Positions 23,435 to 62,152 of a DNA stretch of 64,000 nucleotides are shown here, in pieces. A program made the position numbers and the translations under genes. How positions within the stretch are numbered: the first letter of the stretch is position 1; the number at the start of each line of letters is the position of its first letter. The notes beneath the pieces were generated by a model. The model was not told the DNA's origin, made no database searches, and saw only the letters and a program-made list of their open reading frames with translations. The stretch covers positions 1 through 64,000 of the forward strand of contig JAESPQ010000054.1 of the NCBI GenBank assembly GCA_016765535.1, in the 5' to 3' direction. The DNA is from Alteromonadaceae bacterium (lineage in GTDB: Bacteria; Pseudomonadota; Gammaproteobacteria; Enterobacterales; Alteromonadaceae).

Positions 23435-26400
23435 ATGTTACCTCGTTTAGATCATCAAGAATTAGTTACACCGTTATATCAAAAATTTGCCCAACAATTA
23501 AAACAGCAAATACAACCGCAACGCTTTACTGGCGATATAAATATGCAGTACAGCGCGCGTTTAGCGGTGGCTACCGATAACAGTATTTATCAGCAATTAC
23601 CGCAATTAGTATTGCATCCGCGTAGTAAACAAGACATTCAACTTATTACCAAACTCAGTAATGAAGCACAATTTAATGACATTAAATTTAGTGCTCGTGG
23701 TGGCGGTACAGGGACTAATGGACAAAGTTTAACACCCGGTATAGTGGTTGATTTATCTAAATATATGAACCGTATTTTAGAGATCAACGTCGAAGAAAAC
23801 TGGGTTAGAGTTGAAGCTGGGGTGATAAAAGATCAGTTAAATGATTATTTACGTCCTTACGGTTTCTTTTTTTCGCCTGATTTATCTACCAGTAATCGCG
23901 CTACGTTAGGTGGCATGATCAACACCGATGCTTCGGGTCAAGGTTCTTTAGTTTATGGAAAAACCTCAGATCATGTTTTAGCGCTTGAGTCTGTATTAGC
24001 CAATGGTGATTTACTTGCTACGGCAAAAATGACCATAGATGAAGCCAAACAATTGGCTGAGCAAAACACTAGCTATGGCAAAATAGTTAAACAAGTTTTA
24101 AACAGTTGCGCAGATAACCGTGAGTTGATTTTAGCTAAATTTCCCCGTTTAAATCGCTTTTTAACGGGGTACGATCTTGAACATGTGTTTAATGATGACT
24201 TAACTGAGTTTAATTTATCGCGTTTAATTACGGGCTCAGAAGGATCGCTCGCCATTGTGTGTGAAGCCAAGCTTAATTTAACGCCAATCGCCAAAGCAAA
24301 AACCTTGATCAACATTAAATATGATAGTTTTGATTCAGCGTTACGCCATTCTCCCGCATTAGTACAAGCTAAAGCAACCTCAGTAGAAACTATTGATTCT
24401 AAAGTATTAAACCTAGCCCGTGAAGATATTATTTGGCATTCTGTGAGTGACTTAATTACCGATGTTGCTAATAAAACCATGGATGGTATTAACATGGTTG
24501 AATATAACGGTGACAGTGTTACCGTTTTGGCAGAGCAGGTGAGTCAATTAACGGCTCAATTAGATGAAGAAATAGCTACTGAAAAAAATGGCGTTATTGG
24601 TTATCAAGTAACCTCAGACTTAGCCAGTATTGGTCTACTCTATGCTATGCGTAAAAAAGCAGTCGGCTTATTAGGTAATGTTGAAGGTAATAAAAAACCA
24701 TTAGCTTTTGCCGAAGACACTGCGGTGCCACCTGAGCATTTAGCCGACTACATTGGTGAGTTTCGCCGTTTACTCGACAGTTATCATTTAGATTACGGTA
24801 TGTTTGGTCATGTTGATGCGGGGGTTTTACATGTTCGGCCTGCACTTGATATGTGTGATCCCAATCAAGAGAAAATATTACGACAAGTTTCTGACAAAGT
24901 AGTGGCATTAACCGCTAAATATGGCGGTTTAATGTGGGGTGAACATGGTAAAGGTTATCGTAGTGAATATAGTCCTGAATTTTTTGGTGAGACATTATTT
25001 ACTGAATTAAGAAAAATAAAAACTGTCTTTGATCCTTTAAATAAAATGAACCCAGGTAAAATTTGTACACCACTGGTTTTAGATGAAGATGGACAAGACG
25101 TCCAAACAGAAAATTTAGTCTCGGTTGATGATACCAAACGCGGTTTTTATGATCGGCAAATTCCCGTAAAAGTTAAAGACTCTTTTACTGCAGCACTTGA
25201 CTGTAATGGTAATGGCTTGTGCTTTAATTATGATGTTGATAGCCCGATGTGTCCATCAAGTAAGGTTACGCGTGACCGAAGGCAGTCTCCTAAAGGTAGA
25301 GCTAGCTTGATGCGTGAGTGGTTGCGCTTATTAGAACAACGCGGTGTTGATGTACTCACTTTAGAAGAAAAAGTGAGCCATTGGTCGATAAAACGCTTAC
25401 TTGATAAAGTAAAAAACAGTTTAAGTGAACACAATAAAGATGATTTTTCTCATGAAGTGATGGATGCGATGGCGGGTTGTTTAGCCTGTAAAGCTTGTGC
25501 CAGTCAATGTCCTATAAAAGTAGACGTACCTGATTTTAGAGCGCGTTTTCTTAATTTATATTATTCTCGTTATAATCGCCCGTTAAAAGATCACTTAGTG
25601 GCTCATGTAGAAACACTAGCACCCATGATGGCGCTCACCCCAAGCTTAACTAATGCGGTATTGAAAACAGGACTTTATAAAAGTTTTGCTAAAAAAGTAC
25701 TGGGTTATGTCGATACACCGTTATTATCAATACCCACGTTAAAGCAGCAGGTTAATCAGCAAATTAAACAGAAAAATTATCCTGAATTTGATTTAATACA
25801 ACTGCAAAATTTGAGTGATGAAGAACGTCAACAGCAGGTGTTAATTATACAAGATCCCTTTACTACTTATTATGATGCGAACTCAGTCAGTAGCTTAATG
25901 GGCTTAGTTAAAGTGTTAGGTTTTACGCCAATATTAGTGCCGTTTAAACCTAATGGTAAAGCGCAACATGTAAAAGGCTTTTTAACTAAATTTGCTAAAA
26001 CGGCGCAATCGGCTGCTGATTTTTTAAATCAATTACATGCCTTAAATATTCCTATGGTTGGTACCGATGCTTCATTAGTATTGTGTTATCGTGATGAATA
26101 TAAACAAGTATTAGCAGAAAAACGTGGTGATTTTAGCGTGCTATTGGCACATGAATGGTTAGTTAGTGTATTACCGCTGATCAGCATTAAAGCACAGCAA
26201 AAACAAACCATTGATTATCAATTATTTGCCCATTGTACTGAAAAAACCGCCTTGCCTAAAAGTGAAGATCAATGGGTAGAAATCTTTGCTCATTTGGGTT
26301 TATCGTTAACTAAAGTTGCCGTAGGGTGTTGCGGCATGGCAGGAACGTATGGTCATGAAGCGGTAAATTATGATAATTCTAAGCAATTATTTGAAATGAG

Positions 26401-26536
26401 CTGGCAAGCTAAACTAGATAAATTAGCGGCTGAACAAGTGCTGGCAACGGGATTTTCTTGTCGTAGTCAAAGTAAACGCTTTGCGGGCTTACAAGCGCGC
26501 CATCCTGTGGAAGCCTTGCTTGCGGCGTTAAGCTAG
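23435..26536 (+). CDS. ydiJ: YdiJ-type FAD/Fe-S dehydrogenase (D-2-hydroxyglutarate dehydrogenase family)
   Basis: The 1033-aa protein matches E. coli YdiJ (1018 aa). An N-terminal FAD-binding PCMH domain (ARGGGTGTNGQSLTPGIVVD, LGGMINTDASGQGS) is followed by an FAD-oxidase C domain (FGHVDAGVLHVRPAL). Next comes a 4Fe-4S segment, CLACKACASQCPIKVDVPDF. A C-terminal CCG-type domain contains VGCCGMAGTYGHE. YdiJ has been reported as a D-2-hydroxyglutarate dehydrogenase; a related D-2-hydroxyacid substrate is possible. It is a single gene with its own terminator. Confidence 0.9.
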   Translation: MLPRLDHQELVTPLYQKFAQQLKQQIQPQRFTGDINMQYSARLAVATDNSIYQQLPQLVLHPRSKQDIQLITKLSNEAQFNDIKFSARGGGTGTNGQSLTPGIVVDLSKYMNRILEINVEENWVRVEAGVIKDQLNDYLRPYGFFFSPDLSTSNRATLGGMINTDASGQGSLVYGKTSDHVLALESVLANGDLLATAKMTIDEAKQLAEQNTSYGKIVKQVLNSCADNRELILAKFPRLNRFLTGYDLEHVFNDDLTEFNLSRLITGSEGSLAIVCEAKLNLTPIAKAKTLINIKYDSFDSALRHSPALVQAKATSVETIDSKVLNLAREDIIWHSVSDLITDVANKTMDGINMVEYNGDSVTVLAEQVSQLTAQLDEEIATEKNGVIGYQVTSDLASIGLLYAMRKKAVGLLGNVEGNKKPLAFAEDTAVPPEHLADYIGEFRRLLDSYHLDYGMFGHVDAGVLHVRPALDMCDPNQEKILRQVSDKVVALTAKYGGLMWGEHGKGYRSEYSPEFFGETLFTELRKIKTVFDPLNKMNPGKICTPLVLDEDGQDVQTENLVSVDDTKRGFYDRQIPVKVKDSFTAALDCNGNGLCFNYDVDSPMCPSSKVTRDRRQSPKGRASLMREWLRLLEQRGVDVLTLEEKVSHWSIKRLLDKVKNSLSEHNKDDFSHEVMDAMAGCLACKACASQCPIKVDVPDFRARFLNLYYSRYNRPLKDHLVAHVETLAPMMALTPSLTNAVLKTGLYKSFAKKVLGYVDTPLLSIPTLKQQVNQQIKQKNYPEFDLIQLQNLSDEERQQQVLIIQDPFTTYYDANSVSSLMGLVKVLGFTPILVPFKPNGKAQHVKGFLTKFAKTAQSAADFLNQLHALNIPMVGTDASLVLCYRDEYKQVLAEKRGDFSVLLAHEWLVSVLPLISIKAQQKQTIDYQLFAHCTEKTALPKSEDQWVEIFAHLGLSLTKVAVGCCGMAGTYGHEAVNYDNSKQLFEMSWQAKLDKLAAEQVLATGFSCRSQSKRFAGLQARHPVEALLAALS

Positions 26537-26565: not shown

Positions 26566-26599
26566 AAAAACGGTGAGTTTTACTCGCTCACCGTTTTTA
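26566..26599 (+). terminator. Rho-independent terminator of ydiJ
   Basis: aaaaacggtgag and ctcaccgttttt form a perfect 12-bp stem with a 9-nt loop, ending in T. Confidence 0.88.
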
Positions 26600-26615
26600 T
26601 TGTTACTTATTTTAT

Positions 26616-26805
26616 CATGCCTATGCAGATAACTCAGGAGTCCTTATTTAAGTCGGTAATTCTTCTGTAGGTCGACATTTATGTCGTCAAAGGCAGAATA
26701 AATGACATGAATTGATGGGCTACGTTACATGGATGTAACTTATTCGACAATGCAGGAGATGTCCTGAAGCCCAACAAGTTTACCTGAACCAAGTACATAG
26801 GCATG
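26616..26805. repeat. 190-bp multiply branched palindromic element of unknown function
   Basis: The ends catgcctatg and cataggcatg are perfect 10-bp inverted repeats. Inside, tcagg (26634) can pair with cctga (26783), and ttctg (26663) with cagaa (26694) around the hairpin cgacat-tt-atgtcg. ttgatgggct pairs with agcccaacaa (9 of 10) around two further hairpins, gttacat-gg-atgtaac and cagga-gatg-tcctg. It has no ORF. It lies between the ydiJ terminator and the convergent leucine dehydrogenase gene. The 10-mer gttacttatt occurs on both flanks (26602 and 26814), a possible target duplication. It could be a miniature mobile element or a structured RNA. Confidence 0.6.
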
Positions 26806-26838
26806 TATTTTATAGTTACTTATTAAGTTTTTTAGACG

Positions 26839-27873
26839 CTATTTTCCACCATTAGCGATAATGGCACGTGCCATTTTATCGGCCACTGATCCTGTTGGTT
26901 TATTTTCTTTATCAGCGGTGGTGAAAATAGTCATTAACGTATCATAAATTTCTTCAACTTTTTTGGTTGCCTTATCGACACTGTAGTTTTCTTCAAAGGC
27001 AATATTAATAATGCCACCAGCGTTAATAACATAGTCAGGACAATATAAAATACCTTTTTCAAGTACTGCTTGTCCATGATGTGGTGCGGCTAACTGATTA
27101 TTAGCACAACCCGCAATAATTTTAGCTTTTAAACGCGTTAAAGTATTATCATTAATAGTGGCACCTAATGCACAAGGGGCATAAATATCAACGTCTTGGT
27201 CATATATTTCATCTAAACCAACCACCGTTGCGCCAAGCTCTTTTTCTGCTCTAGTTAAGCTATCTTGATTAATGTCGGTAACAATCAATTGCGCGCCTGC
27301 TTTATGTAGCAATTCACATAAACCATAGCCAACACTACCTAACCCTTGCACCGATACTTTTAGATTAGTTAAATCATCACGATCAAACTTATATTTTACT
27401 GCGGCTTTTATACCTAAAAAGGTGCCTAATGCGGTAAATGGTGAGGGATCGCCACTTTTACCTTCGGTGCCAGTTACAAAAGGCGTTACCGTATTCACAA
27501 TAGCGATATCACCCGTATTAATATTAACGTCTTCAGCGCTAATATAACGGCCATTAACATTGTTAAGTGCTTGGCCAAAGGCTTTAAATAGTGCCTCAGA
27601 TTTAATGGTTTTAGCATCGCCAATGATCACCGACTTACCACCGCCCATCGATAAACCAGCCATCGCATTTTTATAGGTCATACCTTTAGATAAACGTAAA
27701 GCGTCTATTACTGCTTCTTCGTCTGAAGCATAATCCCATAGACGACAACCACCGACGGCAGGACCTAATTTGGTGCTATGTATTGCAATAATTGCTTTTA
27801 AACCTGAGGCTTTATCACTACAAAATACCACTTGTTCATGATCGTCAAAATCTACTAAATCAAACAATGCCAC
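26839..27873 (-). CDS. Leucine dehydrogenase (Glu/Leu/Phe/Val family)
   Basis: The 344-aa protein fits NAD-dependent branched-chain amino acid dehydrogenases, which deaminate leucine, valine and isoleucine to 2-oxo acids. N-terminal LGPAVGGCRLWDYASDEEAV and the catalytic lysine motif MSKGMTYKNAMAG-type region (SKGMTYKNAMAGLSMGGGKS) are present. A Rossmann domain starts at VSVQGLGSVGYGLCELL, and GCANNQLA follows. It is a monocistronic leftward gene; the 515-bp upstream gap gives no obvious operator. Confidence 0.9.
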   Translation of the reverse strand: MALFDLVDFDDHEQVVFCSDKASGLKAIIAIHSTKLGPAVGGCRLWDYASDEEAVIDALRLSKGMTYKNAMAGLSMGGGKSVIIGDAKTIKSEALFKAFGQALNNVNGRYISAEDVNINTGDIAIVNTVTPFVTGTEGKSGDPSPFTALGTFLGIKAAVKYKFDRDDLTNLKVSVQGLGSVGYGLCELLHKAGAQLIVTDINQDSLTRAEKELGATVVGLDEIYDQDVDIYAPCALGATINDNTLTRLKAKIIAGCANNQLAAPHHGQAVLEKGILYCPDYVINAGGIINIAFEENYSVDKATKKVEEIYDTLMTIFTTADKENKPTGSVADKMARAIIANGGK

Positions 27874-58000: not shown

Positions 58001-58057
58001 TTGTAGGTCGCCGCTTGCCGCGACAAAATGCCGCTGACATCACATGGATGTGATTTT
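58001..58057. repeat. Two-hairpin repeat after the S9 peptidase gene
   Basis: ttgtaggtcgccgcttgccg then cgacaaaa forms the stem gtcgc/gcgac. atcacat-gg-atgtgat forms a 7-bp stem followed by TTTTTAG, so the second hairpin could terminate transcription. Both modules have counterparts in the 26616-26805 element (tgtaggtcgacat...gtcgtcaaa; gttacat-gg-atgtaac). Confidence 0.65.
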
Positions 58058-58069
58058 TAGAATATATCA

Positions 58070-58885
58070 CTATTGTAAATGCGGCATTTTATTTTTCCAT
58101 CGTGCTAAAATTTTTATGTAAGTACCATCACGGTGAATTTCACTCAGTTTATCTTGTAATGTGTGGAGCATTGTCTTATTGCTTTGTTTATTGCAAGCAA
58201 GATAAAAATTTAAAGGTATACTTTTTATTTCTAAAACTCGCTGTAATAAATTGATATTAATACCTGCTAATTTTGCTCGATAACTAATACTTATATCATC
58301 AGCAACAATAAAATCAATTTCGGGACGAGTAACTAGTAAGTTGATCAATGATTTGGTATACCCTAATACATAGAGGTGTTTACCTGCCACAAAACCATTT
58401 TCAATCATACCTAAATGAGCTACCCCATCTTTATTAACCGCAGTAATATAATTTTTAATATCGCTAAGTTGTTTAATATGTTGAGTGTGATTATTACTTT
58501 TTAACCCCCAAATAACGGCATTATTTTCTTTTGTTATTTGACCAACCCAAGCAAATTTGTTTTCTCGTATTGGAATGCGAACTATAGAAAAAAGACAAGT
58601 ATTAGGATTTTTTAAAGTAAGGTTATAACTTCTAACCCAAGGATACGAGGCTATTGAATATTCAATATTACTACGTTTAAATGTTTCTAGAACAACGTCG
58701 GTAGCAAATCCCGTAACGTTATGATTATCTTCACCGACTATTTGATAAGGTGGTAAGTATTCGGTAACTAACGTTATTTGTGTTGCAATAGCATTAGAAT
58801 TTACACCATACATTATGCTTAATATGATATATCGTTTTATAAATAGTATATTTTGAATCATAAACGATAGTTTCTGCCTAATCAC
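58070..58885 (-). CDS. Periplasmic substrate-binding-like protein (SBP_bac_3), second of tandem pair
   Basis: The 271-aa protein has a hydrophobic N-terminal signal and then ITLVTEYLPPYQIVGEDNHN and GFATDVVLETF, the start of the SBP_bac_3 (PBP2) fold. It is paralogous to the next upstream gene over its whole length (TEYLPP, GFATDVV, HPW/YPW, NTC, FYLACN). No ABC permease or ATPase is adjacent, so it may be a sensor-type or orphan binding protein. Its start overlaps the end of the upstream paralogue by 8 bp. Confidence 0.8.
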   Translation of the reverse strand: MIRQKLSFMIQNILFIKRYIILSIMYGVNSNAIATQITLVTEYLPPYQIVGEDNHNVTGFATDVVLETFKRSNIEYSIASYPWVRSYNLTLKNPNTCLFSIVRIPIRENKFAWVGQITKENNAVIWGLKSNNHTQHIKQLSDIKNYITAVNKDGVAHLGMIENGFVAGKHLYVLGYTKSLINLLVTRPEIDFIVADDISISYRAKLAGININLLQRVLEIKSIPLNFYLACNKQSNKTMLHTLQDKLSEIHRDGTYIKILARWKNKMPHLQ

Positions 58886-61869: not shown

Positions 61870-61936
61870 CTTTGTTGATTAGCTTTTTATAATATTTTTA
61901 TTAACAAACACTAGCATTATTTGCTAGTATGCGCGT

Positions 61937-62041
61937 CGAGCCAAGGGGTGTGTAAATTTTTAAATAATTTTAGAAATTTCACTGAGACGTATTACGAACC
62001 CTTTGAACCTGAACCGGATAATACCGGCGTAGGGATGGCAT
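61937..62041 (+). ncRNA. TPP riboswitch (THI element)
   Basis: The core ccaaggggtg, ctgagacgtatt, acgaaccctttgaacctgaa and ccggataataccggcgtagg then gatggc is the classic thiamine pyrophosphate aptamer. It precedes the TonB-dependent receptor by about 110 nt. In the expression platform, ggatc (62121-62125) and gatcc (62145-62149) can pair next to the start codon at 62153. This suggests translational control by hiding the initiation region; no strong terminator is seen. Confidence 0.95.
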
Positions 62042-62152
62042 TGAAGAATAGTTTTATGTTGACAATAAATGTCAGTAAATTAACTTTATCCTTAGACTGT
62101 TTTTTAAACCTCCGTGTGCCGGATCCCATAATATAATTTAATGAGATCCTAA

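Follow-up and report, generated by a model that had tools for sequence, protein, structure and literature searches.

A probable IS1595-type MITE with REP palindromes and a twin-hairpin module as cargo in an Alteromonadaceae bacterium

Introduction

What kind of element is a 190-bp, multiply branched palindrome that lies between the ends of two convergent genes? The question arises in the stretch of DNA analysed here, hereafter the window (64,000 nucleotides, positions 1 to 64,000 of contig JAESPQ010000054.1), in which the palindrome occupies positions 26616-26805. A ydiJ-like FAD-linked oxidase gene (23435-26536, + strand; PF02913, PF01565) points toward it from the left and a Leu/Glu/Phe/Val dehydrogenase gene (26839-27873, - strand; PF02812, PF00208) from the right. 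The initial annotation proposed either a non-autonomous mobile element or a new structured RNA. Our comparison of copies within and between genomes argues strongly that the element is of the first kind, very probably a MITE moved in trans by an IS1595-family transposase and loaded with REPIN-like cargo and a further hairpin module. Elsewhere in the window, Rfam models mark a TPP riboswitch (61934-62052, + strand) and a tandem of two equally scoring tRNA genes (922-1118, - strand).

Results

The layered architecture initially described for the locus is present in full. Perfect 10-bp terminal inverted repeats (CATGCCTATG/CATAGGCATG) are followed inward by a tcagg/cctga stem, a cgacat-tt-atgtcg hairpin within ttctg/cagaa, and a ttgatgggct/agcccaacaa pairing that encloses two hairpins. 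The separate terminator noted just upstream was also recovered: a terminator scan places an intrinsic terminator at 26566-26598 (+ strand), outside the MITE, and it belongs to ydiJ. The list of open reading frames holds none of 60 aa or more within the 190 bp, and the element is small and non-coding, as the definition of a MITE asks.

In the host genome (G000; 86% complete, 3.6 Mb spread over 128 contigs) BLAST finds 59 pieces related to the MITE, which fall at about 40 places, so the element is multi-copy and not the single copy that the initial annotation had named as counter-evidence. TIR-like ends number 65 in this genome, versus 0 for a reversed control pattern, and complete copies are about 140 to 202 bp long. 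In the window the 8-mer TATTTTAT adjoins both ends of the MITE (26608-26615 and 26806-26813, without strand); in other copies the duplication in this position is likewise 8 bp long but differs in sequence. We counted duplications in the 24 complete copies with both flanks, using flanks swapped between copies as control. Perfect 8-bp duplications abut the ends of 16 of the 24 copies (1 of 552 mispaired flanks), and at least 7 of 8 bases match in 20 of 24, versus 20 of 552 in the control. The duplicated bases are 96% A+T, versus 75% in adjacent sequence. Four of the 24 copies are missing a clear duplication, as expected from decay or rearrangement. The 10-mer gttacttatt does occur on both sides of the MITE, as had been remarked, but it cannot serve as a signal of mobility: it lies beyond the true 8-mer, was rejected as the target duplication, and seems to be a repeat that the target already contained. 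Furthermore, a congener (G003) has ydiJ and the leucine dehydrogenase gene in convergent order with the terminator present and the MITE missing at the junction. These results bear out the proposal of a non-autonomous mobile element.

A candidate partner emerged from a search for the MITE end pattern across 299 genomes of the family. In relatives, pairs of such ends lie about 960-985 bp apart and bound ISs with one transposase gene. The reading frame of the IS (about 974 bp) is open over 294-298 aa at L209, L214, L215 and L216, the last of these from the genus of the host, in which genome G001 holds the gene intact. Its product matches PF12762 (DDE_Tnp_IS1595; 6.5e-22) and PF12760 (zinc ribbon; 1e-17), both above cut-offs, and several IS copies in relatives are flanked by perfect 8-bp duplications. 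Likewise, 8-bp A/T-rich repeats have been reported for ISApl4 of the IS1595 family (PMC12561309). Compared with the 974-bp IS in L209, the left terminal repeat of the MITE (CATGCCTATGCAGATAACTCAGGA; 26616-26639, + strand) is identical at 24 of 24 bases and the right one (26782-26805, - strand) at 22 of 24. Homology ends after about 24 bp, indicating that the MITE is not a simple internal-deletion derivative of the IS. The pairing of the outer stem is interrupted alike in the MITE and the parent IS, indicating that this stem reflects transposase sites. No IS1595-type transposase gene was found in the host assembly, which its incompleteness (86% complete, 128 contigs) could explain. We also considered carriage on plasmids and rejected it, as the MITE has no plasmid match and the IS just one weak partial match.

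Between these ends lies an inverted pair of GTAG-tagged REP palindromes. The first, GTAGGT-CGACAT-TT-ATGTCG-TCAA (26667-26690, + strand), is intact. It belongs to 12 related GTAGGT hairpins, each verified in its own locus and together forming a gap-free alignment; they are 100% paired, with a covariation score of 0.826 versus 0.257 after shuffling, and the covariation collapses when the alignment is slid by one column. The second REP hairpin (26712-26777, - strand; arms 26712-26721 and 26766-26777), delimited by copy comparison and alignment, has lost its GTAG tag in the window through a 4-nt deletion; the tag is intact in sister copies (GTAGGTTGGGCTTCAGCCCATCAA). In short MITE copies this hairpin is present in an empty, module-free form.

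The host carries two RAYT genes (PF01797), at C51 and C114. One of the two, the C114 gene (L071), is bordered by REP pairs with a layout like that of the MITE core; RAYTs presumably provided the REP cargo. All sampled hosts together yield at least 110 elements with MITE ends. Of these 110, 102 have a core of GTAG and/or CGTC type, and a perfect duplication flanks 71. The type of core follows the host: mostly CGTC in the NORP105 isolate and in C. marinimaniae (Colwellia), mostly GTAG in the host of the window. What disperses in the host copies is not the REP pair by itself but the whole segment between the IS1595 ends, which 8-bp duplications border. At L168:4790-4855 these ends enclose no core at all; this 66-bp element, flanked by a perfect 8-bp duplication (TTTGTTAA), is perhaps close to the minimal mobile form.

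Long MITE copies carry an extra ACGT...CCT segment of 43-51 bp in the second REP hairpin, which we call the twin-hairpin module; about half of the copies are without it. In the window it occupies 26722-26765 (+ strand; cmsearch E=2e-10), with hairpins at 26724-26739 and 26746-26763, the second shortened here. Across copies both stems are paired in 100% of cells, and double changes number 21, versus 4.8 in shuffled data. The module also occurs in CGTC REPs, at several positions, and in a third palindrome (GTTATTGATTTCGACAAGG^GACAACCATTC), so that its hosts, GTAG REPs included, are otherwise unrelated families. Comparison of filled and empty sites shows exact or near-exact empty counterparts for many of them, with zero bases duplicated. 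At the L070 RAYT, for instance, the REP on one side is filled with the module and its twin on the opposite side is empty. Nearly every module is followed directly by a G, and two by an A.

A covariance model of the module finds 38 copies in G000, 75 in G001, 18 in G003, 69 in G273 and 17 in G189, and none in G002 or G311. A weak match to the same model in the window (58037-58072, + strand; 22.7 bits, E=0.0013) is perhaps a decayed copy. Among the 299 genomes, MITE ends occur in 23, the module in 36 and both in 14, counts that rest on differing thresholds, the overlap being a comparison of two tables. G003 has modules without MITE ends and G311 MITE ends without modules. Outside the family, few sampled genomes of the class match the module, and these weakly. 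In G092 and G285 the module copies lie inside the third palindrome and probably spread as part of it. There, L313-L332 are many near-identical copies of a long imperfect palindrome (GCGAGTTTAAAAGGCTTA...AAGCCTTTTAATTCTCGC) with the module near its apex; empty forms of the third palindrome were seen at L138, L051, L176 and L017.

We offer as a tentative reading, somewhat less likely than not, that the module is a distinct minimal mobile element. It would insert without target duplication into palindromes already in place, at their 3' arm, loop or base and almost always with a G directly following; its mover would be a putative single-strand or hairpin-recognising enzyme, and recognition would depend on the two structure-conserved hairpins (loops ATGGAT and AGGA) and not on stem sequence. 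We infer that the module inserts by itself, the alternative being that it is handed on and precisely lost. On the copy tree the presence of the module switches 7 times, which speaks against long and short copies as two lineages, but support is poor for 18 of the 21 inner branches, and the tree does not separate gain, loss and gene conversion.

Several other accounts of the module were set aside. RAYT as its mobiliser finds no general link, the module being near just 1 of 28 RAYT loci. In L134 the linker of the module is split by an IS110-type gene (PF01548), which raised IS110 as an autonomous form; on a simpler reading the module would be an IS110 target. The few lone module halves, considered as ends of a larger element, are IS110 splits, decay or chance. 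IS110-like transposase genes lie inside MITE copies at L134:2878-5010 (PF01548, 1.9e-20) and at L109:1709-3215, the latter judged by eye only. Separately, 13-bp tandem expansions occur inside four MITE copies of the host (L019, L022, L018, L024), solely in module-less copies: GAATTGATGGGCT is repeated 2-5 times, and ATGTCATTTATTC 4 times in L024. They likely stem from slippage at hairpins, assembly error being the alternative.

Discussion

Our favoured explanation can be stated as a mechanism. An IS1595-family transposase, acting in trans, would recognise the ends of about 24 bp and duplicate 8 bp of an A/T-rich target; that such an enzyme performed the moving we infer from the ends shared with the IS. 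The interior is cargo of smaller repeats and not an IS remnant: an inverted, REPIN-like pair of GTAG-tagged REPs, such as are ascribed to RAYT transposases. The 44-50-bp module opens one of the two REPs and would have entered it with no duplication of the target. Three nested repeat layers, namely IS1595 ends, REP pair and module, then explain the cloverleaf fold.

The fold had also suggested a new structured RNA, an sRNA or cis-regulatory element retained for its cloverleaf. It does beat dinucleotide shuffles (200 per strand) on both strands, with z=-3.0 on the + strand, where 2 of 200 shuffles are as good, and z=-4.4 on the - strand, where none of 200 is, and the REP and module stems covary. 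Those stems, however, belong to repeats that are also found apart from this element, and their covariation is therefore no evidence of an RNA function at this locus. The fold is pieced together from parts that occur independently, as in G003, and its outer stem consists of transposase end sequences; both strands fold well, genomic contexts vary, the module is missing from about half of the copies, and many copies have target duplications. Rfam models gave no match to the element at the gathering cut-off or at E<=1. We therefore regard a structured RNA as highly improbable. Scarcely any weight, likewise, falls on a REPIN or BIME moved whole by a RAYT (a Y1 HUH transposase), with the outer repeat merely part of a REP cluster. 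The genome does have two RAYT genes, one flanked by similar REP pairs, but the 8-bp duplications adjoin the outer ends, unlike movement of the IS200/IS605 type, and the same ends bound an IS1595 gene and hold CGTC-type cores in other hosts.

A MITE by origin could also have been retained as a 3'-end element, a transcript terminator or stabiliser of convergent genes. Among the 22 host copies with enough flank, none interrupts an ORF of at least 100 aa, and of the 20 classifiable ones 10 lie between convergent genes, 8 in tandem and 2 in divergent contexts. Purged insertions in genes and promoters would yield the same pattern, though; the syntenic site in G003 does without the element, and ydiJ has a terminator of its own. 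We thus consider such retention unlikely. The placement of the copies fits a mobile repeat tolerated at gene ends, and they may have a role at transcript ends.

MITEs as such are known. As far as the literature searched shows, with most subscription journals outside it, what is new is the layered build, in which REP cores are exchanged while the IS1595 ends stay fixed, together with a module whose distribution is independent. The locus displays a layered nesting of small bacterial repeats, in which DDE-transposase ends enclose HUH-type REP palindromes and these a third hairpin module. Fixed ends with host-varying cores suggest that palindromic cargo is tolerated or favoured regardless of its sequence. 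How hairpin repeats without target duplications spread is described as central but unresolved for REPINs (PMC3116915), and the module, which covaries strongly and offers many filled sites with an empty counterpart, is a tractable system for this question.

Among known systems, the element resembles IS1595-family ISs and MITEs, such as ISApl4 (PMC12561309), in its partner with a zinc ribbon and a DDE_Tnp_IS1595 transposase, its A/T-rich 8-bp duplications, its short terminal repeats and its non-coding nature. It differs in its interior, which is not IS-derived: constant ends enclose a REP pair that is of GTAG or CGTC type, varying with the host. The core shares with REPINs and with the GTAG- and CGTC-tagged REPs of RAYT systems (PMC3116915, PMC3733652) the GTAG tag, the perfect short palindromes, the inverted pairs and the similar REP pairs beside a RAYT gene of its own genome. 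Unlike REPINs, the REP pair here is enclosed by transposase-type ends with 8-bp duplications. REP pairs within MITE ends echo a passage of PMC3733652 on A. variabilis and H. neapolitanus, where some REP dimers lie within long palindromes; the passage assigns these to no transposase family. Finally, REPs are described as targets of IS insertion (PMC1525189), and here too palindromes are interrupted by other elements, with IS110-type genes splitting or entering them in L134 and L109; the twin-hairpin module differs in having no gene and no known partner.
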